From Saccoglossus kowalevskii (taxonomy: Eukaryota > Hemichordata > Enteropneusta > Harrimaniidae): a stretch of 52,789 bases of DNA. This document shows positions 27,201-52,789 of this stretch, piece by piece. Location of the stretch: NCBI RefSeq assembly GCF_000003605.2, contig NW_003126887.1, positions 262,984-315,772 of the forward strand. The letters run 5' to 3'. The notes beneath the pieces are model-generated. The model was given only the letters and a program-made list of their open reading frames with translations. It had not been told where the DNA came from and did no database searches. Positions within the stretch are counted from its first letter, which is position 1; the number at the start of each line of letters is the position of its first letter. The position numbers were made by a program, and so were the translations under genes.

Positions 27201-30200
27201 CTTATTCCACTCTCAAAATCAGTAGCCATCCAGTAAGCAACAATGCCCTCAGTGTCCGACTGGAGAACTTTCCCATCAATTACCTCTTCCGGAAAATTGG
27301 CTGTTTGAACTCCAATTGATACCTGTCTCATCTATAAAAAATAAAATGAGAGCATTATTCAAATATATAATTTACATATACAAACATTAGCACTCAAAGC
27401 AACAAATAATTCTTAATAAACATCGTGAATTAATTCAAAAATTGGGTTGTTAATAGAAACTCTGAATAATTTATGTATATGTAAATTAGGTATGTATATG
27501 TGCACAAAAAATAGTGCAATACAATTGAATCACATTTAAAAACTGAATTGAATACAGTATTTTTTAGTTTTCTATTGATGTCATTGAGCAAACACTTCTC
27601 TCTTGGTGTAAATGAGAATGTTTGAGTGTCCGAATAACTAGCTAATCTGATGCTATTACAAAGCAGTTATTGCACTGTAAACCAGTGATCATGATATCGC
27701 AATTACATAAACTATGGTCGCCTTGATATATAATTTGTCTACTAGATACAACAATTGTTTTTTGGGATCGATAAATCTGTATATAGACTTTGACCGGGGT
27801 TTACACTATTTATGTAACAATCAAAACCTTAATTAACCTTTGGAGGTGATGTATCCACAATGACGCCATCAGTATCTTGAACATTGCTGAGTCCAGCACC
27901 ATTCACAGCAATGATTCGTAAACTATAATGTGCACCATTAATTAATTCCAGACTGTCCTGTGATGTCCAGCTTGTTGCGGCTCCCTCTAAAGTTGCGTGA
28001 CTTCCACTGAAACCAAACATTGTACCAGCTTGAATGAGAATGCACGTGATCATGAAAGTCAACACAACTTAGTAGAAACCCATGCTTATAAATAGTATTA
28101 GAATTTGACTTTTAACGAGAAATAAAAGTTTTATAAAATGTTCAGAACTTCCATATTGTACGATTATTGGTTGTTAAGATAAAGAAACATGTTATTATAC
28201 ATAGGCTCGGATTATCATCCATCTACACACATGCGAATGTGCGATTACCTACCGTTCGGCTGGATATATTTGATATCGTAATCCACCATATGTTTGAAAA
28301 ATTGATATTCTATATGACTCCACACCTGAATCTTGATCCCCAAATTCCCATGACGCACTGAGTTGTGTTTCACTAGACTGCGAAAAAAAGCAAGGCATAC
28401 CAAGTGTCATGATCAAATGTGTGTAAAGCCTATGTATGTCGTGTTGAAATTTTGTGTATATATGATTACAGTAAGTTTTATTAACAATTTATATTTTTTA
28501 TTTAATCAACATTGATTTATTCTTTTTCTTGTATGGGCATGTTCATATATTTTGTATTGTTGTATTTATAAGGTAGAAGCCCACTAATTAAATTAAAATA
28601 CCCAGAATTTATTCATTTTGCAATAAACTGTACTGCAAGACAATACAAGGATATTGACCTAAAGAAGTCTGGGGTCACCAGCTCTTTTTGCGAGAAAATG
28701 ATGGTTGTATTTTAGTGGAAACTCGCCATTTTGTCAATGTTATGACATTTTTACCATAGGTTCCTATGGCAGAGATATTATGCAATATCTCAAAATCTAG
28801 CCTGGTGACAATCATATATTGTTAATGAAGGAGGACTTTTTCTACCTTAACTACCTTTGAACAAAATAAATATGATAAATCATATGAGATACTTGAAATA
28901 TTGAAACATAAAAAACGTCGTATATTCTCATAAAAAATGTGAATGTGTAATACATTTTTCAATTAAGATTACCGTATATTGTTGTAACCTATTTCCTGAC
29001 GCGTCACTGTCATATAGATAATAAAATAAAGGTTCAGTGAGATCAACAAAAACACCATCAGATGACTCTACAATTGAATTCAATGCCCCGTTGACAGCTT
29101 CTAATTCTATATAGACAAAGTCTCCATGGTGAAGGTGAAAATGATGCCAGTTGATGAAGGAGGTTGCGCCTGATAATGACTCGGGACCGTGTATGTTGGT
29201 TGTAGGATATGCCGTAATACCTGAAATAAAAACATAACACATATATTACAAAATTCAATTAGAAATTAAGTTAAAACATATATAAATTAATAATTATTGA
29301 TGTGAACCATACCATCGTCATCGGCATGCTTCCTCCATACGTTTACAAAGTAGTTATCGATGTTCGACTCCGGATCGTAAAAATCACCCCAGTTAGCAGA
29401 TACAGTTGATGCCTCGGATGTGAATTCAATGTCTTCATCCGCATTTAAACCATCATGTATCCATCCTACCAACGGCGATGTCTCGTCACACAGAACTACA
29501 CGTTTAGTGGGAAAGGAGGAACCCCATGTAAAATAATCCGAATTAAACTAACACAAGATTAAAATTAAACTCACAAGCGGCATCGGAGCGGCCTAAGTCT
29601 TTTGCAACCTATTTCATAAATAACGTGGTTGTCATTAAGGTAGTTTAAATGTACCATTAGGTCATAATGCAGTTCATAGTTATGGCGACATTCATTGGAT
29701 TAACTTTTAATATAGTTGCGTTATGTGTGGATTAAAACTCGACTCAATATTAAAGAGTTGCGATTTAATTGTAATTTAATTAAACTAAATTACATTGCAA
29801 TTAAATATAGAAATGCGTTTTAAGGTAGCGGGACTATTATTTGCATACTTGTTTTCATCTTCTAATTGTGACTAAATGACTACAAATAGACCCGGGAAAG
29901 TATATATTTTTAGAATCGCCAGACTTCAAGCTTTTCACAAGTTTATTTTGCATGCCCATATCTGCATTCTATGACGCGTTACTCATNNNNNNNNNNNNNN
30001 NNNNNNNNNNNNNNNNNNNNNNNNNNNNNNNNNNNNNNNNNNNNNNNNNNNNNNNNNNNNNNNNNNNNNNNNNNNNNNNNNNNNNNNNNNNNNNNNNNNN
30101 NNNNNNNNNNNNNNNNNNNNNNNNNNNNNNNNNNNNNNNNNNNNNNNNNNNNNNNNNNNNNNNNNNNNNNNNNNNNNNNNNNNNNNNNNNNNNNNNNNNN

Positions 30201-33200
30201 NNNNNNNNNNNNNNNNNNNNNNNNNNNNNNNNNNNNNNNNNNNNNNNNNNNNNNNNNNNNNNNNNNNNNNNNNNNNNNNNNNNNNNNNNNNNNNNNNNNN
30301 NNNNNNNNNNNNNNNNNNNNNNNNNNNNNNNNNNNNNNNNNNNNNNNNNNNNNNNNNNNNNNNNNNNNNNNNNNNNNNNNNNNNNNNNNNNNNNNNNNNN
30401 NNNNNNNNNNNNNNNNNNNNNNNNNNNNNNNNNNNNNNNNNNNNNNNNNNNNNNNNNNNNNNNNNNNNNNNNNNNNNNNNNNNNNNNNNNNNNNNNNNNN
30501 NNNNNNNNNNNNNNNNNNNNNNNNNNNNNNNNNNNNNNNNNNNNNNNNNNNNNNNNNNNNNNNNNNNNNNNNNNNNNNNNNNNNNNNNNNNNNNNNNNNN
30601 NNNNNNNNNNNNNNNNNNNNNNNNNNNNNNNNNNNNNNNNNNNNNNNNNNNNNNNNNNNNNNNNNNNNNNNNNNNNNNNNNNNNNNNNNNNNNNNNNNNN
30701 NNNNNNNNNNNNNNNNNNNNNNNNNNNNNNNNNNNNNNNNNNNNNNNNNNNNNNNNNNNNNNNNNNNNNNNNNNNNNNNNNNNNNNNNNNNNNNNNNNNN
30801 NNNNNNNNNNNNNNNNNNNNNNNNNNNNNNNNNNNNNNNNNNNATATAGGCACACAGATTAAACCTGTGTTGTTGATTTTGGAAAACACTACTGAGGCTG
30901 CCTTACTTCCCTTCAGAAAATCTACATTTTAACCAACTTACATGACATTCTATGTTATATTGACTTTATCATATGAAAGTTTATGGTGCATTTCATCAAT
31001 TAATAAATAAATGTGAAAATCGTAATTTTCAACACAAATAATAGTCTCGCTACCTTAATTCAAGTTCAATTAAATAAAAATAAAGTTCAAACATTTTGTG
31101 ATTTAACAAAGAAATTATACATACAGCCATCAGTGGTAACTTTGGTTGTCAGTTTCTTATGTCCCATGTTAACAGCTACTATTGTATTGTAGTATGTAGT
31201 GTTGTGTTCTAGAACGAGATTATCTTGACACGTCCTGTATTCAGTATACGATAGATCAATGGGTTCGATTGTGTCATTGGCTCCTGGCGTTGTTCCAACA
31301 AACCAAATGTATTTTTCTGTGATATGATTTGACAAAATTATTATTTGATGAACTGACAATAAGAGTTGTTTTCAACCAATGCATGGTATTTAACTTATTT
31401 GGTTAAAAACAGGTTGAGAGGTCGCCCATGCTCACCTATGCTACTTTCTTGGTCCTGAAATCCACTCCAACTTACGCATATTTCATTGCTCACGAATTGG
31501 TAATTAATATCGTGATCATGTACTAAACCATCAAATACGTTCCCTGTCGTCGGCGGGCTGGTGTCAACTATCAATGGCATTAGTCCGTAACGAACAGCTC
31601 GTAAATCGACTGAAATAGTAATTAGTCGAGTACCAATCAACATATTTGAATATAAATAAAAACGGAATTTGACAAGGCTTTATAAAGTCGGATCTCAAAT
31701 GAATGATACATCAATTTACGATCTACTACAGATATAATTTACTAATCTTTGGAAAACTCAAATAATCGAATTAACAACATAAAATATTTCCAGTCTGCAA
31801 ACGCCATTTAACAAAATAAATATATAAACGTCTCACCGTTATTGATTGCCCGGACTTTGACCCATGTTAACACACCATCAGCTAAACAAAATGCCAAGGC
31901 TATATGTGTAACGTGTATTCCCTTTCCCAGTCCATAATATAAACATCGTGTGGTGTTTCTCCCAGACCAAAATCTATCTCTCTGATATTTGATAAGTCGT
32001 CACTTTGAAACAAAAATAATGTCATATATTATATATCATTTTGTATTATATATATATACAACGTTATTTTACATAAGTACTGATATGTATATACTGACCT
32101 ACAATTGTATTCTTCAGAGATAATACAGGTGTCTTCATCATATTCAATATTGAAAATATCATGCACATATGGGGGCGTGTTATCTATTGCTAATGGCGTT
32201 GAATGACATACTGTCGTCGCTAGCGGGCCACCGAACTCCACATTGTTTATCGCTCTGACAGTGACATAGTAAAAACCATCTACAATAAGATAAGGAAAGA
32301 GGTGGTCAATAAGAAAAATGATTCTCGTTGCCGCTAATGAAAGTCGTACTACCAAATGCAATACATCTCGCAGTCACTAAAATGTTCTCACCTGGCAAGG
32401 ACAGAGAATGTGCAATACCCTTATTAGTCCATTCATGTGGATCTGTATGAGGATGAATGTCTTCCTGACACACATCGGTCCCGACAGCCCAAGTATATCC
32501 CAATATACCCGTCTCATCATCGTGGAATCCATCCCAATTTGCTATAAGAAATTGTATTTATCCTGTGATATGAATGTTTTATGATAACAGTGTTTTTACT
32601 CGTTACAAATATATAGTCTTTGGGTGTTTGTGCATACGTGAAGATGTAAATACCTGTAACAAACTTGTTTGATCTAGTGTACAGGAGATCAACAAGCGGT
32701 TCTTGTCCGTTGAACACAGTAGCTGATCCTGGACCATCAACAACATGTCTGTAAATCATTAAAATGATTCAGATCCATTTTATATTTTACACGTACATAT
32801 CATGATGCCAACATCTACAAAAACAATAAGTACGCTGCTTCTCAATTTGAGAAAATAAAAAAATAGTACAAAAAACCCACGCCATTGCTGCGCATTCTGT
32901 ATGCGATTATCTTTTGTGCTTTTATTGTGTTACTAGAAATGAAAAGAAATTGAGGTAGTCGGAAATGGTCGAAATTTGCATATTTTGGTCTGCTTTATAT
33001 GAAAATTCTGAAAACATTCCCACTGCCATGATCGTGAGGTCTAATCCTGAGATTCATGTCGTAATATATGTCTGATTGTTTGCATGAACAATTTTCTAAG
33101 TAAGTATCCAGTGTGAATAATTTCTCCAAAAATGCATTGCATATGCTTAGTAACATGCTCACAAATTCGTCGCTCTCTTAAATGACAAGAATATAAGACC

Positions 33201-36200
33201 CAGTCTATTGTTAATATTGTGTTTTTATTATGAAATGCAAACCATCGTTGGAATGAATTACATGTTACATATTCACACCATGTCAGCCGATTCAACGGAT
33301 TTCAATGCCATGTGAGTTTGAATGTATTGGTTGGCAAGTAACTAATAAATATGTATGTACTTTTTTATTCTGAGAAAACTGTTTAATGTTTGCTTACCGA
33401 TGATTTTCGAACATTCTCGCTTCAATACATTTGTAATGCCACTTGCTGGGAACGAAACTTTCACAACTCGCATTGTATTTAATATCAGACACTGTATTTT
33501 GTATCGGACCAGTGGAAGGGGTTTCGAAATCAGCAACAATGGGACCTGAATTAATGATGGTTTCATAACCTTTAAAATAAAATTAATACAAAAAGTACAT
33601 GTTGAATACATGATTTGTGTCATCCGTATTTTTGTTTTTCGTTAAGCATGGGAAACTCGGGTATTATTCACAAAGAACCAACCAAAGTAAAAAAGTTGGC
33701 TAGAATTTGACGGTAATACCAAAAAAGGTTTCTCTTCCTAGGGAAAATTTAAAAATTCACCGGTGACGCGGTTTTATTTTATTTTTGTGTTTTGGTACAG
33801 ACCATTTAAAATCACAGCGACGTTTATCATATACCTAGTATTACCCGGCCTCGTAACGCTAAGGGAAGTGCGTCCTCACATCTGGGCTCGAGCGCCACCG
33901 CCACGCGAATTATCCACTCCATAAATATGTGCCACTTTACCGGTATGAAAAATTGAACAAAATTCTAAATGCGCGTGATGACGAAAAGTACATTTTGTTG
34001 TTATCTAAATCAAGTAAAAGAAGTTCGCAGGCTATATGTGCTTGTTGATGATACACCACATATCAACTTACCCAGTGTATTTTGTAAATACATGTTGAAG
34101 TAATGCACATCACCGTGTCGTAAATTTAAATTCCGATGTTCAAACTCCATTGACCGGCTTACACCATTTCTCTCATAATAGTTTAGCTGTTTAGCCTGCA
34201 AAATAGCATATACAATATAGAAAACGGGCACTATAATTATTGATCATATATCGAGAAACCGAGGAATTATACGCAACACAAAAACAAGACAGCTTGTTCG
34301 AGTTGTACCGAATAATACAGTCAGAATAACAAAAGGGCTTTCTACAATAATTAAGTGTAAGCCATGCTGACAACATATGGTAATAAAATGAGTATTGTTT
34401 CATTGAAGTTGATGTGTCATCTTTATGAAATTGCATAGTAAATCAAATTATACCATGTTAACTAATATTAGAATTACATACAGATTTACTTCAATTATCA
34501 TCAAACATTAGCCGCTTTACACAACCTTCATTGCGTTTCATGTGGTAATAAAATGTGGAGCACTGTAGTCTCCTTATGTGTACTCAATGACTAGAGTTCT
34601 ATTTTTGATTGTATCAGTTTTGTTGTTCCAAATGAAAATAAAAATAACATAATGTTAATTATGTTGGTAAAATGGTGAGGAGGATTTGATAGAACTGACG
34701 CTCAATGTGTTAACTTGAATGATGCCAAATTCTTTTTAACACAGTCGTTTTAGCTACAGCTGAAAGTTTCCTTAATGACAAAAACCTAAGTATATTTTAA
34801 ATTTCATTTAGTTTGGAACTGAAATTAAACTAACGGAATTTTAATGCCAAGAACGTCAATTAGAACCTCACAATCTGTAGAAAGAGAATACACAACCAAA
34901 TAAGTAAGAGAAAGATTCATGTATCTTGAATTATTGAATGATTTTAAAGATTGCTAATAAAAAGTTCGCGATTGTACTATACCCTGGTGAACCGCCGGAG
35001 CATGTGTGCTACTTTCTGCCAATAGTTCACATGTGCCACTCTCATGTTTGTAATTGAAACTTGTACACATGTCATTGTCTTGGTGACAGTGCTCAGCGCA
35101 GATACTTTCATTGATGAATGATATTGTTAGATACGGGTCGACATTTAATTTACCATTCGCTCGAGTCAAGATGTTGTTGACGAGAAAATGAATTGCTACT
35201 TGAACCGAAATCATTCCAAGGAACAATCTGATCCGCAAAATGATCGTATCCAAATCCCATACTTTTCTGTAATTGATAATAATATGTGTATTAAAGCGAA
35301 AGACAACAAGAAATGAGACAAGACATGTACAGAAACACTAGCAAGTATTGTTTGATATAATATATTGATTTCAGGTGATAAATTAGGTAATAGTGAATAC
35401 GTGATAACCACACGACAAATTAAATAATATATTAACTAAATAATGCATGTAAATGTTGGTATTGTTCTAAAATTTACAATCTGAAAATCGGTATATCGTA
35501 TTATTTATACCAATATACACCATTTTCAATATCTTCAAAAACCTCTTTTCTTTGAAATCAACAAATTTGCATCATGACATAACTAAACAATCTTTACATT
35601 GATGTTTTAACATTATACCAATGTTAACACGTATGCGACGAACTGATATCTCCTACTTACCATTTGCACACTTATGGGACTATCATCTGTAATAACCACA
35701 GACCCTTTCAATATATCAGGACGACTAGTAGATTTGAAAGTTGACAATATCCTGCCACTAGGTAGAGTTGTGTCATACGTTGGTAACACGCATGTTGCCA
35801 TTGACGTTGATTTTGCCGAGTTTGTTGCTTTCACTGTAAAGTGAAGCGGGATTCCACTTGGAAGAATCTGCCAACACAAATACCATACAATTCTCTAATA
35901 TATTGATTATAATTTTGACAGTGATTTGATGTTAAGTTTAAGTCTCGTGCACAATATTTTCTCTGTATCATGAATGTGCGTTAAATGAGACTTGATTGTG
36001 TAATGCTATTAGTTATAATATATAATATAAAATCACACGTTGAATCTAACAGGAACATATTAAAAACAATACGCGGAACATAGCAATAAACATTTTATCT
36101 GACTTACGTCAAAAAAACAAAAACAAAAAACACCAACCGTACCAATTAAAACGGCCCTAAATATTTGTTTGGCTGTAGATCCAATTGGTTCGTGGCCAAA

Positions 36201-42200: not shown

Positions 42201-45200
42201 TGCAAGAACACGTTTCTATTTAGATTTGGTGAACGAATGGAAATACGTAAGATAGGTTGAACTAGCTAATATGTAAAAACACGAAGCAATTTACACACTT
42301 TCTTAAATGTTCAAAAGTGACAGATATTTTGATCAACGCTTTTGAGTCACGACGTTCATGAAAATGTTTCCGTTTCAATATAAAGGTGCCAAGAACAAAT
42401 TGTTCATGTATCAGCGTGAAATCAACACCCCTGAGAGATCCCGTAAACCTGAAGTGTGTATTCTATTGTTTTTGAATGGAATGCTTGGTTATCAGATTTT
42501 CAGAGATGCTACAGTTTTTTAACCAGTAATACTTTCTAGTACTCCCTTTATCACATGTGTATACCTGTTTCTAAATGTGTGAACATAAATTATATATTTT
42601 ATAGCGAAATAAAATTGTGTTAGTTTGTAGTGTTGTTGATGTATACTTACCACATACCATCAAAGTACACATTTCACGCCCATTATTGCAAGTACTAGTA
42701 AAATATAACAAAAGTACATTTTAATCCCATACAGACCAAATTAGTTTTTTTTTTCAGAAGTAATAATATACATAACCGATCATGGCATCATAATATACTA
42801 AAACGAGTACACATTATTAATCGCATTCACATTCAATATCACTGATTAATTTTGAATATCGTAGCATAGAGAAGTATAACATAGGGGAACGTACCAAGTA
42901 TTACATCCATCATCTGCTGGGTATGTTGTACCATCCTCGTGCCCATCACAGTCCTCGCCTGAAATTGATGATATTTTTTGACGTTGAGGCTAATGACTCT
43001 ACCCTTGTTCACCATATCTAATATTGTTATTGATATTTAATTAACTTACCAATACAGTCTACTAGTTCTCCGTCAACATAGAAATCAGCATTACACCCAC
43101 CACAATAATTGGCTACACACTTTGCCTCTGGATACGCTGGGCATTCCGTGACTCGACAGGGGTCGGCAAAACAGTAAACCATTGGGACACCAGGCCAACA
43201 GCCATTATCTGTTTGTGGATGTTAGAACGACACTTAATTCAGTCCATTAATTAATTGGTTATTGTCTTTAAAATGTGAATTTAATTGATAGTTGTTACGG
43301 CATTGCCCGGATGTTATAATAAGCAAATAGCATATCTATACTGATTATTGCATGACAATTTCGGATAACCTGTCCATCTTTAATATTTCATTTTCTAACT
43401 AAAAACAAACCAATTGTAATCGTTACGAATAATGGCCGAGTAAATAACACATAACATTAGTAGATATATAAACCTTTCCTATACTTATTTTACCCAATGA
43501 TGAATACATTTTACTGCCTACTTGTTTTTCTTCGGCGCTATAAATACAGATTGTTGTCCCCTTAAAAATGTGCATTTTTTCATCTAAAAAGCTATAAGTT
43601 CACTATAATGAAAAATACATATTTTCGGTCACAATAAACTCTTGGGTAGATTTAGGACAATAGCGTGCCTTGTGTATATTGAGTATCGATTTCAGAATGT
43701 TTGAATAAACTACGTATTGTTTTCAGTGAAAACGCGATTCCTTTTATTTTAAAAACTATATATCCTATAATTTAAGACACTTCATATTAGCTAATATGTA
43801 CAAGAATCGTTTGTGAATATTTCAGACAAATAGGTTAAGATGGTGTTAACTTAAATTGTTTTCAATTTTCTATTCTAATTTTCATAACTTATCAGTTGAT
43901 CAATGTACAAAGTGATGCTTTATATTCAAGGTAAGTATGAGCTTGTTGAATGACCTCATTGAGTATATAAATTGTATGCAAATAAATAAATTTGTTTGTT
44001 AAAACAATAACATGTTCTCATTAGCGTGTAATTTGGAAATTTGTTCATGTGTTCCATACGAGATATCAAAGCGAATTACAAAAACGTTTTATAAATATAG
44101 TATCTGTTCTGGAAACTATTGTTGCAATACGGTAACAGTGGATTGCTTGTAATTTTGTGATACGTCTAGATCGCTCCTCTTTTCTCGGTGTTATCTGGTA
44201 TATTTTACACACAGCGCGCCATCGTTATTATATCGTCGTAAGTATGACTGTCCGAATAATTAATGACAACTTTGAAAGCTCAAGCTTGTCGTGTCTCGAG
44301 TTTTTTACAGAATTTTTTCACGATTTTTGTCATGATTGCTCAAATTTTCTGTGTTTAACTCTGAAAAGAATCAATATTAACACATTTGTAACAAGGAACA
44401 AATGGATGAAATACCAGCTGATATTTCATATCGAAACTCATACAAAATTAAATGCACTGTTGAAACATCTAAATAAATATTATCTAAAATATTAACATTT
44501 ATTTTGTCTACTAGCGGGGCTTCCAAGATAATGTCAATAATATAAAACAAAAGTGGGGAATACAAATTCGGAAAACAGATTTGGGAAACTTGTATTCAAG
44601 ATCATTTTCATGTGACACTTCAATCACCATTTTTACCTTTTCCCCTCCTGTATATAGATATAGAACACTGAAAGTCAAGCATTTTTCAATAGCAATGATT
44701 CTAATTGTGTTAAATATATAGTAGTCACGATTCTATCTATTGTTGTAAGAACTGATGCAATACTACACTACAAGAAAGATGAAAATATCAGTGTGCTACA
44801 TTTTACTCATTGGCAGCACATTTCTCGAGTTTGAAGGCATACGTTTTGACTAGATATCGACATCATAATGGCAATAACACATATGCGGTTAAATTTCTAT
44901 AGAATAGTTAAACACAAAATTTAAAGAGAAACAATCTTGTAATGTCACATTCCGATATATTATTGATCCATCATATTTCCATTAACAATCCTAATTTCAG
45001 TGATTATATTTCAATGATATATCCTGCTGAATTCAACTTCTTCTCCTTCATACATATTCAGATTTGTGCATTGAATTTAACATCGGCTATTAAGTGGATT
45101 TTAATTTTCTATACCTTCATAGCAATGTCCTATACTCTCCCACGTATGCGGTATACATATTCCAGTCCAGTCCTATGTGGGTTTCTGGGTATATGCGGAC

Positions 45201-47540
45201 TTTTTAAAGACATATTGTCTTCTCTCGTCAAACTGTTAAACCCATAGTTTTGTAGCGAACGACACTACTTCACAGACGATGATCTGATGACATAAATGCC
45301 ACTTGTGTAATTATGTTATTACACTTCAATATGAAATAAGCTTGTTCCCCCGTTAAATGTAAAACTAATAAGACGAGGCACTATCTCATCCATGCTGATA
45401 ATCAACAATTCACGATCGTAGAAATTTGATGGGGATGCAAATCATTGGAAAACATTTGGGTCAAATAGAAAACTAGGGTATTGTATAACACTATTATAAC
45501 TCGCCTATATCAGCAATGATTTTCTTATAGTCGCTCAATGCACAAAGACACTAAAGGGAAATCATTTAGTGTTCACTATTTATACTTACAATTGATTCAC
45601 AATTGAGAGAAATGCAGTTGACTTAATTGCATGCACATATTGTAAGAGACCCGATGAAACGATGTTCCATCCGTTCAGAGTGGAATAATACATCAATTAA
45701 TCTCCATCATTCATTGATAGATAGATTCCGAGTATCACACTTGATACTAGCCCCTTTATTGTGTTTCTCAACATGTGATTTTTGATACTAGCAAAAAAAT
45801 GACCAATAACCTGAGTAATATATGCTATTAAAATAATCGAATTTGCATTTCACATATGAAAGTAATAAATGGTTGGGAAACGTTATGCCATGTTATAAAT
45901 ATATTAAACATATTAAAACATTTGAAATGACACAGAATCATAAATAGTATAACACCTCTACAAATTAAAGGGCTGTAATCTAAGTGGAATACTAGTTTAT
46001 GACTATAGTTTTATGCTTCATGATGTAACTCTCACCAAAAGGGTTTAGTCACACAACAAACTTTGCCGATTGACATAATATTGACAGAATAAACAGCATA
46101 CCGTCAGGTTCCATGCACACATGACCGCATCCAGTGCTGCAACACTTCATAGTACCATCACAGTCTTCATCGTCACCGCAGAGTTCTACACACATGCTAC
46201 CTCCTTGTGGAATGGGACATTCCCCAGGCTTGTCAACTATTAAATAATACACACATAAACTCACATTCAGTTAGAAGATTTAAATGTGGCGCTGTATAGT
46301 AAATGTATTAATAAATGAGTAGAGGAGTTATTCTGGGAAACATCCTAATGTTTAGGTCTGATGGAGTATAATGAATAATACCTTCACACTGTCTACAAGT
46401 ACAAAGTGTTTATTGTATGATCCAGTTTGTTTAATTAGCATGTTAGTTATGTAAATATTCTTTATAATTTATAGCATTATAATATATGCATGTCAAACTA
46501 TGTAAGGACCAACTTACAGCAATAATGTCAAGAGTTGAAATAAAACATAATTAGAACAATGGCCAGCCGTGCCATACAATGATGTGACACGGGTTTTACA
46601 GTCTGGGATAAAAGTGAAAATAAATTGATAAGCAAACGTCGTTAGAACAGTTCAAATTATTAAATGTGGTATACCTGTACAGTCCACTTCTTTTCCCTTG
46701 TGATAGAATACAGCATTACAACCACCACAAAAGTTAGCCACACATCGTGCTCGTGGGAAAAGTGGACAAGTTTCGACTTCACATGGATCAATCGAGCACT
46801 GAAGCTCAGGAACACCAGGGGGACATTTTTTACCTGTCAAAAAATTCATCCATGTATATATACGTTCACTAAATCGAAAATAAGCATCTTATTTGAAACA
46901 AGATTAAAGAAATTTTAGATAAACCAAGCCTTATTATTATAAGATCTACATACCTGCCTTCCTTGTGTCTACGTATTTGGCCTAAAACGGACAACAATAA
47001 GATGTAATTCCATTTTAACGTTGTTACTACGAAACATTTATCATTTAATACATTGCGAACTTAGAAGAAAAAAAAATGCTTCTCTTAAAATATATTGTAA
47101 TTTATTACAATTATTTATAAAATTTAAATAAGAATTATTCTCTTAAATTACACCGGATTCAGGTTTCGCAATATATCATTGATCACATGAAGATGGGGAA
47201 ATACTTTTCTCAAATAGTCTAATCAGTCTAACGATACAATGCATCTAGTATTTCGAACACAATCACCTTTGCATATACTTTGAGTGTTGTGCATTGTTAA
47301 ATAGTGACATAATAGAAAAGAGTGATTAAATCATTAATAATTGTTTTTCCAGCCGTATTTATTGGGCTGGAAAGCTTTTTAAACTGGGTGAAATCAACAC
47401 AATACATGAATGCACAAAACCCAGAATAGATTCTCAAGTGTAAATGGTTTACGGAATCAGACTGTGTTAATACTTACCGTTACAATAGTAACAATGACCA
47501 CCAATATATACACAACTCGTAGCTTGTCAGATGAAAACAT
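6968..47540 (-). CDS. Giant mosaic type I membrane receptor-like gene (61 exons mapped)
   Basis: I read one minus-strand gene from ATG at 47540 to TAA at 6968. Sixty-one coding exons, about 10.8 kb coding, were placed by acceptor/donor sites, and exon lengths agree with intron phase at nearly every join. Order: signal peptide, Cys-rich, WAP, Cys-rich, two pacifastin-like modules, about sixteen FN3-like repeats with a PAN domain, an unassigned Thr-rich block, more ectodomain, cadherin-like and CSPG-like repeats, two EGFs, one membrane span, acidic tail. The N-terminal part has a signal peptide but no stop, and the C-terminal part has a stop but no signal peptide, which favours a single gene. 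No connecting exon was found between 36256 and 41627, and the 14883/12457 join is out of phase, so two genes cannot be excluded. Five exons need a small indel correction. The architecture implies cell-surface adhesion or ligand binding; no ligand can be named. Confidence 0.75.
7465..7735. repeat. Diverged duplication of 8455-8706
   Basis: Shares TTAGATTAATAATTACACTT, ACAATGGTATA, AACATACACAAC and GTGAACTA with 8455-8706 in the same order and orientation. The copy lies just downstream (minus sense) of tail exon 7751-7903; the exon itself was not duplicated. Confidence 0.7.
8455..8706. repeat. Diverged duplication of 7465-7735
   Basis: Second copy of the segment described at 7465-7735, in the intron between tail exons 9089-9251 and 7751-7903. 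Confidence 0.7.
9376..9544 (-). CDS. Receptor: end of EGF 2, membrane span, A9 run with stop
   Basis: Exon from GTAAACGG at 9544 to the donor AG|GTAATT at 9376. It completes the second EGF ([10 protein letters not shown], then WPC), followed by a short stalk and the membrane span [21 protein letters not shown] basic stop-transfer [10 protein letters not shown] then follows. In the given sequence a run of nine A (plus-strand T9 at 9389-9397) is followed directly by TGA at 9386-9388. With one more A the frame would run to the donor in phase 2, exactly the phase the next exon (9089-9251) needs. So either the protein ends after KKKK, or the run is one base short here. Confidence 0.85.
10035..11123 (-). 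CDS. Receptor: cadherin-like and CSPG-like repeats, EGF 1 and start of EGF 2
   Basis: A single 1,089-nt exon (363 codons, phase 0 to 0), far longer than any other exon in the gene. Its first half is cadherin-like, with DREGDII and the linker [10 protein letters not shown] resembling the calcium-binding DxNDN motif. The second half resembles CSPG/cadherin-3 type repeats: [14 protein letters not shown], then [15 protein letters not shown]. It then carries an EGF domain (CMNGAACQG ... [14 protein letters not shown]) and starts a calcium-binding EGF ([10 protein letters not shown]), which the next exon finishes. Splice sites are CTAG|GTATG (acceptor) and CAG|GTATGT (donor). This is the membrane-proximal stalk. 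Confidence 0.9.
11242..12457 (-). CDS. Receptor: unrecognised ectodomain, 4 exons
   Basis: Exons 12320-12457, 11955-12108, 11723-11874 and 11242-11333, all phase-consistent with each other and with the cadherin exon. The sequence is extracellular in character: [39 protein letters not shown] and [16 protein letters not shown]. The W...W...TC ending recalls the last strands of GAIN-like or other beta-sandwich modules before a membrane stalk, but I do not recognise the family. The upstream join, to the exon at 14883-15105, is out of phase, so one exon is probably missing between them. Confidence 0.7.
11358..11551. repeat. 97-bp tandem duplication in intron
   Basis: Two adjacent copies, period 97, of a segment containing GTTTTGCTCTTTTGACAGTG, differing at only a few positions. 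A recent local duplication. Confidence 0.9.
11653..11714. repeat. (CACT)n microsatellite
   Basis: Run of CACT tetranucleotides with a short CA-rich preface, directly next to the donor of exon 11723-11874. Confidence 0.9.
12594..13704. mobile_element. 1.1-kb terminal-inverted-repeat DNA transposon, non-autonomous
   Basis: Left end starts GATCCGTGGTACATCATGGC at 12594. The reverse complement of the right end (from 13704) starts GATCCGTGGTAAATCATGGC. Similarity continues for about 80 bases (CTTACAA, then TATTAG), so the inverted repeats are long and about 80% alike. Both ends are flanked by the same 6 bp, GGTCAT (12588-12593 and 13705-13710), a target duplication. A third GATCCGTGGT core lies inverted inside near 13186-13195. 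No transposase is visible. A 6-bp duplication narrows the superfamily (IS3EU- or Dada-like are possible), but I cannot assign it. Confidence 0.75.
13711..14880. other. Intron remainder, no exon found
   Basis: AT-rich sequence between the transposon and exon 14883-15105. One coding exon is expected somewhere between 12457 and 14883 because the flanking phases do not match, but I could not place it. Confidence 0.4.
14883..16299 (-). CDS. Receptor: last FN3-like repeat and following module, 4 exons
   Basis: Exons 16124-16299, 15834-16023, 15301-15462 and 14883-15105. The first begins [20 protein letters not shown], the typical end of one FN3-like repeat and start of the next. The second gives the FN3 core [16 protein letters not shown] and then [14 protein letters not shown]. 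The third and fourth ([35 protein letters not shown]) leave the FN3 pattern and are not recognised. The fourth exon's donor, CG|GTTAGT, is weak and ends in phase 2, while the next mapped exon needs phase 1. This is the least certain boundary of the block. Confidence 0.75.
15202..15275. repeat. (AAT)n microsatellite in intron
   Basis: About 23 AAT triplets followed by AAATAAATAATAAA, just past the donor of exon 15301-15462. On the minus strand it gives a meaningless poly-Tyr frame. Confidence 0.95.
16620..19597 (-). CDS. Receptor: unassigned block with Thr-rich linker, 8 exons
   Basis: Exons 19443-19597, 19194-19316, 18885-19068, 18397-18615, 18043-18194, 17693-17871, 17257-17386 and 16620-16815, all in consistent phase. 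This block does not follow the FN3 pattern. It looks like two related beta-rich units ([20 protein letters not shown], and [13 protein letters not shown] with [10 protein letters not shown]) separated by a Cys cluster (CALCC, then CDCNC) and a mucin-like linker [18 protein letters not shown]. It ends with another Cys cluster, [18 protein letters not shown]. The donor at 17257 reads GAG|GCACGT, so the intron 16816-17256 appears to be of GC-AG type. I do not recognise the fold. Confidence 0.72.
19688..24649 (-). CDS. Receptor: FN3-like repeats, middle block, 13 exons
   Basis: Exons 24426-24649, 24129-24338, 23776-24022, 23360-23563, 23149-23245, 22779-23039, 22531-22667, 22173-22412, 21359-21629, 21139-21268, 20770-21027, 20431-20634 and 19688-19862. 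All joins agree in phase. The repeat is an FN3-like beta-sandwich with a Trp in strand B ([34 protein letters not shown]), a strand C ending in a GT-type turn ([18 protein letters not shown]), a Tyr-x-Val strand ([24 protein letters not shown]) and a linker of the form [25 protein letters not shown] or [10 protein letters not shown]. Repeats are commonly split into two or three exons, usually before strand C or in the linker. Confidence 0.85.
24660..25960. other. Intron with degenerate short repeats
   Basis: No exon. The motif GCAAATTAGGTAATT and weaker copies recur near 25275, 25407 and 25600. GAAATATGTTGAAAAACAAG at about 25440 has a looser copy near 25545. This suggests a decayed tandem or interspersed repeat with a unit of roughly 130-200 bases. 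Confidence 0.4.
25981..29495 (-). CDS. Receptor: FN3-like repeats, second block, 7 exons
   Basis: Exons 29313-29495, 28973-29220, 28253-28377, 27838-28028, 27169-27331, 26668-26827 and 25981-26216. Diagnostic pieces are [84 protein letters not shown] and [17 protein letters not shown]. All joins agree in phase except one. Exon 28253-28377 is 125 nt and leaves phase 2, while the next exon needs phase 1. Removing one base from the A5 run at 28297-28301 (T5 on the coding strand) makes it 124 nt and in phase, with the alternative frame also open. Confidence 0.8.
29987..30843. other. Assembly gap (857 N)
   Basis: Unsequenced bases. The gap falls in the intron between receptor exons 31125-31316 and 29313-29495. 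Those exons match in phase (TTDG then FLCDETSP), so no exon need be missing here. Confidence 0.99.
31125..34195 (-). CDS. Receptor: FN3-like repeats, first block, 8 exons
   Basis: Exons 34072-34195, 33398-33545, 32654-32748, 32392-32541, 32099-32279, 31837-32002, 31436-31609 and 31125-31316. Pieces include [79 protein letters not shown] and [14 protein letters not shown]. Exon 31837-32002 contains an in-frame TAG caused by an apparent extra TA in the plus-strand TATATG at 31901-31906. Without the two bases it has 164 nt and joins both neighbours in the right phase, giving a normal FN3 ending ([10 protein letters not shown]). Confidence 0.82.
34978..36256 (-). CDS. Receptor: first FN3-like repeat and PAN/apple domain, 3 exons
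   Basis: Exons 36138-36256, 35661-35867 and 34978-35266. The first two form an FN3-like repeat: [14 protein letters not shown], then [20 protein letters not shown]. The third starts [17 protein letters not shown] and then holds a PAN/apple-type segment, [31 protein letters not shown] and CELLAES, with Cys spacing of that fold. Two exons need a one-base correction: 36138-36256 is 119 nt (one short of phase, A7 at 36198-36204), and 34978-35266 is 289 nt (one too many, A4 at 35185-35188). With those, both are phase 0 to 0 and fit their neighbours. The donor of the PAN exon (ATA|GTACAA) is weak. Confidence 0.65.
36780..37330 (-). mobile_element. Broken BEL/Pao retrotransposon integrase fragment
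   Basis: Minus-strand translation gives integrase pieces typical of BEL/Pao elements: FMVTDNGST near 37320-37290, then [42 protein letters not shown], and a C-terminal [11 protein letters not shown] close to 36870. The pieces lie in different frames and are interrupted by stops, so it is a decayed fragment. No long terminal repeats were recognised around it. It lies in the presumed large receptor intron (36257-41626). Confidence 0.7.
37340..38470. other. Presumed intron, nothing recognised
   Basis: No exon or RNA gene seen. The first few hundred bases may belong to the same decayed BEL/Pao element, since integrase-like sequence ends abruptly at about 37330. Confidence 0.35.
38477..39132. repeat. 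329-bp tandem duplication with internal CATGACAGTG motifs
   Basis: Copy 1 starts ACATATTTTAGTATAAGG at 38477; copy 2 starts identically at 38806. The copies are about 97% alike by eye. Near the left of each copy CATGACAGTG and relatives recur three to four times. No protein is evident. Confidence 0.92.
39133..41620. other. Presumed intron, connecting exon not found
   Basis: Exon 41627-41670 leaves phase 1 and the next mapped exon starts in phase 0, so at least one more exon should lie between 36256 and 41627. I could not identify it with confidence. Confidence 0.4.
41627..42011 (-). CDS. Receptor: pacifastin-like module 2, exons 8-9
   Basis: Exons 41948-42011 (64 nt) and 41627-41670 (44 nt) together encode [20 protein letters not shown] followed by [14 protein letters not shown]. 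The C-N-x-C-x-C core and the C-T-x-x-x-C ending match pacifastin-type (and similar small VWC-like) inhibitor modules with six cysteines; the first spacer, 14 residues, is slightly longer than usual. An intron in phase 2 splits the module between the third and fourth cysteines. The exon sizes are identical to those of the preceding module, so the exon pair was duplicated as a unit. Confidence 0.8.
42651..42958 (-). CDS. Receptor: pacifastin-like module 1, exons 6-7
   Basis: Exons 42895-42958 (64 nt) and 42651-42694 (44 nt) encode [20 protein letters not shown] then [14 protein letters not shown]. Six cysteines are in the pacifastin-like order. This is the sister copy of the module at 41627-42011, with the same phases (1 to 2, 2 to 1) and lengths. 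Pacifastin modules are serine-protease inhibitors in arthropods; inhibition here is only a possibility. Confidence 0.8.
43050..43208 (-). CDS. Receptor: Cys-rich module 2, exon 5
   Basis: A 159-nt exon, phase 1 to 1, encoding an 8-Cys module: [48 protein letters not shown]. It is a paralogue of exon 46675-46833, with the same length and the same CVAN(Y/F)CGGCNA signature. Such modules neighbour WAP and Kunitz-type domains in secreted invertebrate proteins. I do not assign a named family. Confidence 0.85.
43215..46095. other. Intron, nothing recognised
   Basis: AT-rich intron of about 2.9 kb between exons 46102-46236 and 43050-43208, which match in phase. Open frames such as 44157-44495 have no splice or domain support. 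Confidence 0.5.
46102..46236 (-). CDS. Receptor: WAP domain, exon 4
   Basis: A 135-nt exon, phase 1 to 1, encoding one complete WAP (four-disulfide core) domain: [42 protein letters not shown]. All eight cysteines and the CxxDxDCxxxxKCC spine are present. WAP domains are often serine-protease inhibitors or antimicrobial. The symmetric phase is typical of a shuffled module. Confidence 0.95.
46675..46833 (-). CDS. Receptor: Cys-rich module 1, exon 3
   Basis: A 159-nt exon, phase 1 to 1: [20 protein letters not shown], then [20 protein letters not shown] and [10 protein letters not shown]. Eight cysteines in the same pattern as exon 43050-43208. The acceptor ACAG|GT and donor G|GTATAC are canonical. 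Confidence 0.88.
46954..47540 (-). CDS. Receptor: signal peptide exons 1-2 (start)
   Basis: Exon 1 (47478-47540) opens with ATG at 47540 and encodes [20 protein letters not shown] plus T, then donor GTAAGT in phase 0. Exon 2 (46954-46981, 28 nt) continues AKYVDTRKA and leaves phase 1. A short basic n-region followed by about eleven hydrophobic residues makes a signal peptide, with cleavage likely after the VTA. This is the only in-phase start I found for the gene. The upstream flank has no clear core promoter. Confidence 0.8.
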
Positions 47541-47544
47541 GATA

Positions 47545-48960
47545 TTCTGAATGGTACGCATTCAGTTTGATTTGCTATATATGTCGTATGAGACAATAAG
47601 TGCTCGTTACATTTTGCATCCATTCAGATTTTGATTCCTCATCGGGTCATAGTTCGTCAGATTGTCTCTATTATCTAACGGCCAATCGCATTTAGTAAAA
47701 TAAAAAAAAACATCGATTATCAGAACTTTTCCGTTACATTATTTGTGTGGATGTCATATCGCGGTCAAATATGGTCTTAAAATGACCTATACAGTAATTC
47801 ACGAACTCTGGAAACTAATAATCTAGAATGTGTTACCATGGTGGTATTAATATATATATTTCAGGAATTCTCTCGGCTAATGATGGGTAGCAGCATATGG
47901 AAGTTAATAGTTAATTGGTATCCATGCGTATTTATTAATACTGTCACACTACTCATTACTTACGCTGTACAGTATGTTCGTGCAATAAAATTAATTTGTT
48001 TTTAATTACTCGTAAATTCATTTTCCGAATATTCAGTAAAATCATGAACATTGGCGACTGAGACCATAGTATTGTATGACATGTACTCAGATACACTGAG
48101 ATACAATTGAGAAACGTTTGTTAAATTAAGTGGCATGATCAACCAGATGATTTCCTTGTGTGTTTTTTTAAATATGTGGTTTTTTTTATAAATAAGCTTC
48201 AGTTTACTTAACCCAGAAAAAAATATGTGATCATCGAACTATTTTTCGTAAAAGACAAGGGTGAAATATCCACGAAAATGTATTCATTCAGTCATTTGAG
48301 CATGCATTTATATCTAATAACATCCTGGCGCGCATCAATCAGTAAGTATACGAATAATTGGATGGCTAATATAATGTCATGTCAGATGTGCAACATCTGG
48401 GTATGTTTGCATTACTATCTGCATCGCCCCCTGTCTTCACCGTGACCACACTCAGTGGATTTATGTTTTTCTTTTTCAATAATGATTATGCCTATGAAAC
48501 TCCTAATGGTTTCGTTCACCTCAAACTGACCCCGTACTACACTACATTGCTATGATACATTACTATCGTTACGATGGATGCAACTATAACATAGTAACAA
48601 TTTATTTCAATTGTAATAATTTACCGAAGATCTGAACAAATGAAATTACTACACATGTTTTTTTTATAATCATATGACATACAAGTACGTACATTAATAT
48701 GTCATGTGACGTGTGACGTATTGTCAAGTTCGACGTCAGGTAGACATTTTAGACTTGGAAATCGTAATATTGCTAAAAATAATAAAATACAATGCAAAGT
48801 ACAATAAAATATTACACCACGATACTACTTGATCTTTGGATGTGAACGCATGCAGGTAATATTGGATACACCCATTATTGAACGCGTTGTCATTTGCTCA
48901 TTATCAATTCAGTACAATTTGAATACGTTGAATTTGCATTACAACCCACGCATTCTCATG
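47545..48960. other. Intergenic: receptor 5' flank and homeobox 3' flank
   Basis: No exon seen. This stretch separates the receptor start (47540) from the homeobox stop (48967), both on the minus strand. It should hold the receptor promoter, but no TATA box at a convincing distance was identified. Confidence 0.5.
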
Positions 48961-48966
48961 CATTTT

Positions 48967-50064
48967 CTAGTGAAGGGAGCTGCACCTGCCGACGAGGGCT
49001 CCGACCACAAACTTGGATGCCGGTTCCTCGTTTTCTTTGACGTCATATGAACACCTCTTGTCAGCACAGCTTAAATCTAGAGGTTGCTCAGGGGGTCCTG
49101 AATTTGGCCCTCTTGTCTTTGGAGAATACTTGGCTCTAGAGTGCGCAGGAACAACGGGATAGTAGTGATGCATATATGGCGGGTAATAATATGGGTTATA
49201 CTAATATCTATTAACACCGGGTGCTGGTGGATCTGCATCTTTTGGGTCGAAATCATGTGTACATTTGATACTGGAAGGAAGTCGTCTTGGTGACGAAGGC
49301 TGTAGAATCGAATCCATGGCAAATAAGCTAACGCGACTCGATGTGGGAACGGGGGTTGTGGGCGGCGGTGTTACAATTGTTTCTTGTGTGACTGAAACAG
49401 CATGTTCCTGGACTTCCTCTTTGACTGGCATTATGTTATCACACCGGAACTTAGCCGGATTACGTCGGAACTTAGCTCGTCGGTTTTGAAATCATCTCTG
49501 TAAAGGTAAATAAATGTATCATGAATGGCATATTTACGAAGGAGGTGTTGGAGGTCGTGTCACGTTGACAGTATTGAAACATTTTTAAAAGCGCAGATGG
49601 CACACACGACATAAAATGTTAACTAAATTGACTACAATAATACTACTAGTAATGTACATACCGTGATTGTGTCAAATTCCAACTCCAGTACATCTGCTAT
49701 TTGTTGGCGCTGAGCCGAATCCGGATACTGCTCTTTTTCGAATACTTGTGTGAGTCAAGTGATTTGGTAGGCATAGAAAGTGGTTCGTCGTGCCCGACTG
49801 GTTTTATGAAGTTTCTTCTGATTATTGCAACCTAAAAAAATAACAGAATAACTCATTTAGTGGTGGGTGAAAGGCTAAATATGAACATACTATTTGTAAA
49901 ACCAATACTTTAGTCTGGTATTACACTTTCTGCAGAACACAATTACGAATACCTACCGCCTAGACTGGACGATGAGTTACTAAGACTCGGACTGCCGTCT
50001 CGGCTGCAATCATCATTATCACTCATACTTGGTCCTGGTGAAATCAACGAGGAATTCATAAACT
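48967..50064 (-). pseudogene. PRD-class homeobox gene with three in-frame stops
   Basis: Three exons: 49957-50064, 49662-49831 and 48967-49497, with canonical splice sites and consistent phases. The homeodomain runs from RARRTTFYAYQIT through QYPDSAQRQQIADVLELEFD to FQNRRAKFRRN, with L16, F20, Y25-P26-D27, L40, Q50, N51 and R53. The intron lies between homeodomain residues 46 and 47, the position shared by PRD-class genes. C-terminal parts hold an eh1-like repressor motif (LFAMDSILQP) and a PLDLS CtBP-binding motif. Stops: TGA at 49755-49757 (homeodomain position 15), TGA at 49492-49494 (invariant Trp48), TAG at 49201-49203 (just before YNPYYYPPY). No frameshift is present. It would encode a nuclear transcription factor if intact. 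A 5' exon may be missing; an ATG lies at 50059. Confidence 0.8.
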
Positions 50065-51114
50065 CTAAAAAAAAAATGGGTGTATGAGAACATGTACTCG
50101 TCATAAACTCTGGACATTGTAAGGATTAACCAAAATAAAGTTATCGCTTGAACAGTTGGTCACGTGTCTAAATGTGACGTAATACTTTTTGAGGAGATAG
50201 TAAAAACCTTTTTCAATTCGTTTAGTTGTGTTTGTAGATATACAATCATTTGTCCTGTTGGTTCTTTTTATTTTACAAAATTGTTAAATTTGTTTCGCAG
50301 TTTACTAGTGTCAACTAATGCCAGGTAAGAAATGGTATGTTGTACTGCTACAATTCTCAAATGCAACACAGTCGTGTTCACAGTCCAGTATAGGAAGATG
50401 TGGTAAACGTGGCATACCTGGAAGGCATATTTGAAATGAGTTGCGATATGGTTTTGACAAAAGACTAACCCCGAAGCACGTATTTTATATTTTACTATTT
50501 AAATAATTTATCAGCACGATTTTTTTTGCATTGTTATAAACAACTGTGTGATTCGAGAAAAGAGCGTCTATTTCATTATTCATTATTGCCCAAGGGGACA
50601 CTGTATGCTTTTGTCGAATTTATAGTCCATAGGATGAATTCATTAGAAAAAAATCATTCACAAATATTATACAGTTTTCGGTCAATTTAGATCCACTTGT
50701 GGACGGTCATTCTTCGTGGCGAGGACGTTGACGTCCAGTGAGTCTTGAATAATAACGGCAATGAGAAAGTTTGTATTATGTTATTCTATGATCTCTCCTT
50801 ATAGGGCGTAACAATAACATCTCTGATCGGTTTCTGGGTTGGGTTACATTTTTGGTTTAAAAAAAACAGTGTTCTACGTATAGTTTGTATGCAAGGAATT
50901 TTCCCACACAAAAACGACGAATTTGACTTAATGTTGCCCAAATGAATCGACTGGCTAAGAAAGTTTGTTATTTTTCCTTGATTTGTAGGATCTGAATATT
51001 CTCAAGCTCACCTTTGCACTGGGTTCAAAGTTCAACAAAACAATGTAATACGTGTAGTCTAATCGTGTTGTCAACAAACGCCTCATATAGTTTAATGCTT
51101 TGGGGGCACACAGA
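50065..51114. other. Divergent intergenic region between homeobox locus and tyrosinase
   Basis: About 1.05 kb between the homeobox exon 1 (minus) and the tyrosinase start (plus). It probably contains the tyrosinase promoter and 5' UTR. No further exon was recognised. It carries one CACGTG E-box, listed separately. Confidence 0.5.
50159..50168. promoter_or_regulatory. CACGTG E-box upstream of tyrosinase
   Basis: GTCACGTGTC, about 950 bases before the tyrosinase ATG. In vertebrates MITF binds CACGTG and CATGTG boxes to drive tyrosinase. Whether this one acts is inference from context only. Confidence 0.3.
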
Positions 51115-51837
51115 ATGGTTCAATCTCAACAGTGTACTGTCTTATTGCATGTAGGCATCATACTATCATCTGTACTTTTCTTCAAATGCAGTGGCCAGTT
51201 CCCGAAAGTATGTGTTTCACCAGAATCTTTGTCGCGCAAGGAATGCTGCCCACAACCATTTGGTTATGACTCAAAATGTGGAGGACCTGGTAGAGGGGCG
51301 TGTGTTGATCTTATGCCACCAAAAGCCGGCGACTCTTCACAATTCGGTGGTGATCTCGACCGTTTGGCGTGGCCGAGTACATTCTTTACACGTGCGTGTA
51401 AGTGTGACGGTAATTTTGACGGTTATGACTGTGGTCAATGCAAGTTTGGTTATAAGGGAACGGAATGCGACCAAGAAATTCGTGTGACCAGACGAAATAT
51501 CTTGTCAATGCCTCAGTCTGAAGTTAAGAAGTTTCGATCGTACTTATTAAATGCTAAAGACAAACTAAGTGACTATCAGATAGCGACAAGTCTTTATATC
51601 GATATGTTAAATGGTGATAACCCACTCTTTAATAATATAAACGAGTATGATCTTTTTGTGTGGAACCACTATTATGCAGCGCGAGAAAATATTCGACGAC
51701 CTGCCAGTGTTAATGACGGTAGCACTATTATCGATTTTGCGCACGCTGGACCCGCCTTCTTAACCTGGCACCGGGCGTATCTACTCTTATTTGAACGCAT
51801 GATACAACAGGCAAGTAATAACTCACACTTTATGGAG
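51115..51837 (+). CDS. Tyrosinase, first coding exon (partial gene)
   Basis: Copper monooxygenase of the melanin pathway, which oxidises tyrosine to dopaquinone. Start at ATG 51115. 241 codons follow to the donor GAG|GTAAAT in phase 0; reading on meets a stop. A signal peptide is seen (residues 8-25, LLHVGIILSSVLFFKC). A Cys-rich EGF-like region follows (about 33-118; CKCDGNFDGYDCGQCKFG). Then comes copper site A with ligands His185 (FVWNHYY), His210 and His219 (DFAHAGPAFLTWHRAYLL). An N-glycosylation site NNS precedes the donor. The domain order and RRNIL and YDLFVW motifs are those of vertebrate TYR/TYRP. Copper site B, the membrane span and the tail must lie in exons beyond the window. Catalytic type (TYR or TYRP-like) cannot be decided from this exon. 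Confidence 0.92.
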
Positions 51838-52789
51838 GTAAATGTCCGGGCAAAAGCTGAATTATGAAGGCTGCGTATTGGTTTAGTGACGCGTTTATCA
51901 GTCTGAGCGTGCGGACACGTTCAAACACAAAATGAATGATGAATATTAACCTGAACTTTGTGATATCATTTTAACTGGTGACCTTTCATCAACTAGTCAA
52001 CATTGGCCGATATCGAAAGACAAACAGTTCAAAATGTTTGGAGAATTTGACATTTATTTTTACGGTAATACAAATAACCTTACTCATTGTCATACCATTA
52101 ACAACTGAACGATTTTGGTGATTATTTATTTTCACCGCGCAAACCTTAAATAAGTAATGACTAAAACTTAAACCCGTCTTTTAAAATTGTATCTTTAGTT
52201 CACTTTATGAATTCTTATTAATGGAATCAGCTTGGAAATTGAGTTTAGTAATATGTGGTGTCTTTGCCCAATGATAATTACCAAACGCTTCAGCGTGGTA
52301 TTAAGAGTTTGTTTTCAGGGGTGGGTGATACCAAGGTGGGAAATGGATGCACATATGGGGTTAATTCCTTGAATTGCAATATAGAGGGTTCAAGCTGAAA
52401 TACAATATATAGTGTTTTCATGTTTCGTCTGATATTTCTGTGGTATTCTGCTGCTGTAAGTAATGCACGATTTGTTCCGAAATTCAGTATATTGTGTGTA
52501 TTCCAGGGTTATTCGTTTTTTGCTGAAAACACCCCTATTTTTTTAGTGACATAGTCGAATAGTCTCACTCCCACTGGGAAATCTGCATTGTTGCTTGAAT
52601 GTGAGTTAATTAAACATATTTTCCAGACCGGCGAAAGAGTATACAACAGCCAATTTTAACAGCCTGTCACGTGATTTTAGTCTGAATGTCAACATGAAGA
52701 GGCTAGTCCATTTTACGCAGGAGTAATTGGGAGTAGAATATGTGAGGGATAGTATCAACAGAGATGTGTATAGTGAAAAGTAATATCTA
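51838..52789 (+). other. Tyrosinase intron 1 (incomplete)
   Basis: Follows the GTAAAT donor at 51838. No second exon with copper site A/B residues was found before the window ends. Confidence 0.6.
52667..52674. promoter_or_regulatory. TCACGTGA palindrome in tyrosinase intron 1
   Basis: A perfect 8-bp MITF/TFE-type E-box (TCACGTGA). Its position in the first intron of a pigment gene makes an enhancer role conceivable, but a single 8-mer can occur by chance. Confidence 0.3.

Follow-up and report, generated by a model that had tools for sequence, protein, structure and literature searches.

How can a gene with a frameshift-free reading frame and intact splice sites carry three internal stop codons, two of the three inside its DNA-binding homeodomain? 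This question is raised by a homeobox locus on the minus strand of a 52,789-nt stretch of Saccoglossus DNA, which we analysed as a whole and refer to as the window.

The three-exon gene model itself is real, because exon and phase structure, base composition, homeodomain match and stop counts all support it. Three exons on the minus strand, separated by GT-AG introns (50059-49957, 49831-49662 and 49497-48967), have lengths of 103 + 170 + 531 = 804 nt and join in consistent phases, without a frameshift, into 267 codons plus a terminal TAG stop. The GC content of the exons is 43.5-47.6%, versus 30.6% (a stretch that is nearly intron 1) and 34.1% in the introns. The coding frame of the joined sequence holds four stops, the final one included, versus 9 and 23 in the other two frames, and when the bases of the 801 nt were shuffled 5000 times, a count of three or fewer in-frame stops came up only once. 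Furthermore, the joined protein, with an X at each stop, matches the Pfam homeodomain PF00046 over profile positions 1-57 of 57 (E 1.7e-14). The features of the gene are as follows.

49957..50059, minus strand: exon 1, coding part, with the ATG at 50059 and the phase-1 donor G|GTAGGT
49832..49956, minus strand: intron 1, GT-AG, 125 nt
49662..49831, minus strand: exon 2, homeodomain through residue 46 (Pfam homeodomain match of the joined protein)
49755..49757, minus strand: in-frame TGA at homeodomain position 15
49498..49661, minus strand: intron 2, GT-AG, 164 nt, at homeodomain 46/47
48967..49497, minus strand: exon 3, homeodomain from residue 47, C-terminal part and final TAG
49492..49494, minus strand: in-frame TGA where the homeodomain should have Trp48; the frame continues with FQNRRAKFRRN
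49303..49326, minus strand: eh1-like motif LFAMDSIL, codons 149-156, found by eye
49201..49203, minus strand: in-frame TAG in the C-terminal part, in the tyrosine-rich stretch RY*YNPYYYPPY
49069..49083, minus strand: PLDLS, a CtBP-type motif, codons 230-234

An earlier note on this DNA had described most of this structure, and our analysis agrees with it on the identity and position of the stops (TGA, TGA and TAG, at 49755, 49492 and 49201), the absence of frameshifts, the splice junction 49662/49497 with its phases, the intron at 46/47, the residues Q50, N51 and R53, the eh1-like motif and PLDLS.

At the 5' end, base 50064 is the first after an acceptor-like T-run and AG, and a second in-frame ATG lies upstream at 50104, with the frame open down to 50059. 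An 11-nt direct repeat, AGAGTTTATGA, was seen by eye at 50111-50101 and 50066-50056 (minus strand), each copy containing one of the two in-frame ATGs (50104 and 50059). The second copy overlaps the acceptor-like T-run and AG, and an upstream 5' exon of the homeobox gene is therefore possible.

We take the gene for a paired-like homeobox gene (PRD class, Q50). The residues R5, F8, Q12, L16, F20, Y25, P26, R31, A35, L40, F49, Q50, N51, R53 and K55 are kept. The nearest PDB chains, among the best 60 of 75 matched sequences and thus among solved structures only, were PRRX2, DUX4 and ALX4, with homeodomain identities of 27/58 to PRRX2 and 26/58 to ALX4. At positions 49-59, the FQNRRAKFRRN that follows the second TGA, 11 of 11 residues are identical to PRRX2 and 8 of 11 to ALX4. 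Positions 41-48 (49679-49662 and 49497-49492, minus strand), which flank the intron on both sides, share no residue with either protein (0/8 each), a mismatch that may reflect family divergence or missense decay. The homeodomain of NOBOX also departs at these positions. The intron at 46/47 is common in the PRD class, but not universal. In Nematostella, the genes hbn, otp and rx are reported to share it (PMC2938728).

The likeness to PRD-class and PRD-like genes such as PRRX and ALX lies in the nearest solved homeodomains, this intron, the residues F49, Q50, N51 and R53, and R5, L16, F20 and the YP at 25-26. The locus differs from them by the stop in place of Trp48, the divergent residues 41-48 and the lack of an OAR motif or a paired domain. 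Neither of these two was found in the joined protein, nor was a second Pfam family at E ≤ 0.001. As OAR is reported in over half of the PRD-LIKE proteins, and not in all (PMC4901127), part of them do without it, and its lack does not exclude the PRD class. An open frame through the homeodomain, as expected of a functional gene, is absent, with TGA at positions 15 and 48.

Both short motifs are located C-terminal of the homeodomain. Together, the eh1-like motif and PLDLS, which we take to be a CtBP-binding motif, suggest that the former product was a PRD-like repressor. Binding of eh1 to Groucho has been described (PMC4901127). Paired-like homeodomain factors also make up the phb1-pmar1 family of echinoderms and hemichordates, which we liken to the locus by description only. 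Its member Spu-Pmar1 has two eh1 motifs that are required for repression, the family is reported to have duplicated repeatedly in sea urchins, and a phb1-related sequence is present in a hemichordate (PMC4709884). As the family to which the gene belongs, phb1/pmar1 is a lead only.

What do the stops tell about the history of the locus? The earlier note had argued that each of them is one transition away from a sense codon. This is true yet uninformative, because it holds for every stop codon: TAA can arise from CAA, TAG from CAG or TGG, and TGA from CGA or TGG. For the TAG, a Tyr codon (changed by transversion) is also a likely ancestor alongside CAG, since the stop sits in a tyrosine-rich run. 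The same note had seen an oddity in stops unaccompanied by frameshifts. The pattern was indeed observed, but it is only mildly unusual. We used a two-class neutral decay model, in which both the indel:substitution ratios and the frameshifting share (0.8) were assumed values and not taken from papers. Under this model, three disabling lesions consist of stops alone with a probability of 0.007-0.18 for ratios of 1/5 to 1/20; for 1/10 and 1/14 the probability is 0.03-0.11. Random substitutions create a stop in the coding frame in 3.7-5.2% of cases, and three stops imply about 58-80 of them. In simulated decay, both motifs remained untouched in 89 of 1000 runs at 65 substitutions, and in 57 at 80. 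The number of expected substitutions, the rare survival of both motifs and the lack of frameshifts favour, but do not prove, that the loss was recent or that the hits were gathered under relaxed selection.

Very probably, the gene was lost to nonsense mutation and is now either a (probably recent) pseudogene or a null allele of the sequenced individual. The earlier note had proposed a pseudogene or null allele, and this reading is the best supported one, given the frame, the homeodomain match, the three internal stops and the failure of splicing to circumvent the two in the homeodomain (see below). A plain, long decay is in tension with the absence of frameshifts, the intact splice dinucleotides of both introns and the presence of both short motifs. 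These tensions are all mild, but the locus is better explained by a small number of hits after a recent loss. The ancestral product would have been a DNA-binding repressor, which recruited Groucho through eh1 and perhaps CtBP through PLDLS, and the nonsense mutations would have abolished this protein. Splicing of a transcript may still be possible, but a protein begun at the ATG at 50059 would reach 59 residues and stop short of the recognition helix. Nonsense-mediated decay would be expected to target such an mRNA. In published practice, stops in or before the homeobox lead to a locus being scored as a pseudogene (PMC8208926).

Could the stops be bypassed, or not exist at all? Splicing around the two homeodomain stops is rejected. 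When exon 1 and the beginning of exon 2 were kept constant and the intron was required to have at least 40 nt, none of the 1075 GT/AG joins between exons 2 and 3 gave an open protein containing both YPDS and FQNRR, and thus both homeodomain halves. The longest open alternative join, of 136 residues, skipped most of the homeodomain. A reassigned nuclear code is unlikely too, as neighbouring coding stretches of 245 codons (the tyrosinase-like exon) and 382 codons (an open stretch of the other neighbour) lack TGA and TAG, although both were taken from the list of open frames and give support rather than a blind test. It is highly improbable that the stops are removed at the RNA level, by A-to-I editing that turns UGA, UGA and UAG all into UGG. 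Such editing would restore the expected Trp at position 48, but a Trp at position 15 would be unusual, where PRRX2 has Ala and ALX4 has Glu. A U before the edited A is a favourable ADAR context, as found at the UAG, and a preceding G, as found at both UGA codons, is a poor one. Furthermore, the region 49400-49850, which contains stops 1 and 2, is not more stably folded than shuffled versions of it (z +1.18, with 89 of 100 shuffles folding at least as well), and an editing duplex in this region was rejected for lack of structure above the shuffles. A precedent is reported from a fungal kinase gene, in which A-to-I changes affect two tandem stops (PMC4817773). The scenario of a living gene with recoded stops, which yields a homeodomain with its Trp48 solely under active editing, has hardly any probability. 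If true, the editing of stop codons would be the on-switch for a developmental repressor in an animal.

It is unlikely that the stops are sequencing or assembly errors in a truly intact gene. The assembly is gapped, with an 857-base N run in the window, and a single sequence is the basis of our reading. However, had random base errors produced the three stops, the 801 nt should contain tens of other errors as well, and frame-shifting indel errors are absent. Base error is an unlikely source, because only the small share of random substitutions given above creates a stop. The N run itself extends over 29987-30843 and marks the window as part of a gapped assembly. It is quite unlikely as well that the locus still serves through a shortened protein. 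Such a protein could be the N-terminal piece of 59 residues, or it could begin internally, for instance at Met114, in which case it would lack the homeodomain, keep the eh1-like motif and could titrate Groucho. Between stops 2 and 3 lie 96 codons, with the eh1-like motif among them, and the medaka psi-hoxa2b, whose transcripts could yield a shortened protein (PMC5831782), offers a precedent. On the other hand, PLDLS falls behind the third stop, and nothing points to selection on the truncated pieces. None of these alternatives comes near to the loss of the gene by nonsense mutation.

As a lost gene, the Saccoglossus locus is a further case of a known kind of homeobox pseudogene. Among human homeobox loci, 65 of 300 were estimated to be pseudogenes (PMC2211742). 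The transcribed psi-hoxa2b of medaka resembles our locus in its several premature stops, and the word frameshift is absent from the main text of its description; it differs in belonging to the Hox class, in having its stops ahead of the homeodomain, in being transcribed and in having a functional paralogue (PMC5831782). The mammalian ETCHbox loci are PRD-class and often lost, through stops, frameshifts or splice changes. Some of these loci are still polymorphic, and the two polymorphic null alleles reported are both frameshifts. Unlike our locus, they often form tandem arrays (PMC8208926). Here, no second copy of the gene was found in the window, where the tblastn hits were the gene's own locus and two matches at chance level (E 4.1 and 4.9). 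Read in this way, the locus is one more homeobox gene lost by nonsense mutation, and its main use is to mark gene loss in its lineage. Its importance would be great only if RNA showed edited stops, or if related species had kept the same stops.

Searches for relatives elsewhere gave 15 pattern matches in viral contigs and 139 in bacterial and archaeal contigs, of which 0 were confirmed in either, as expected for such collections. Within 44000-52789, no repeats were tied to the exons of the gene, and scanning the window for Rfam families and tRNAs gave no hits. A blastn search in the window yielded one match of 26 bases, between upstream non-homeobox sequence and 15953-15979 (E 5e-4).

The window contains further stretches that look coding. 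The first exon of a tyrosinase-like gene lies at 51115-51850 on the plus strand (Pfam Tyrosinase, E 8.4e-10; EGF_laminin, E 2.5e-4), with a signal peptide seen by eye. This gene and the homeobox gene are divergent, with about 1.06 kb between their ATGs. On the minus strand, many short open stretches within 9975-35337 resemble exons of at least one large extracellular gene. PAN_1 matches at 34954-35337 (minus strand), the other eight of the nine stretches scanned having no Pfam match at E ≤ 0.1, and Big_9 matches at 9975-11123 (minus strand, E 3.8e-7), with EGF-like cysteines visible by eye.
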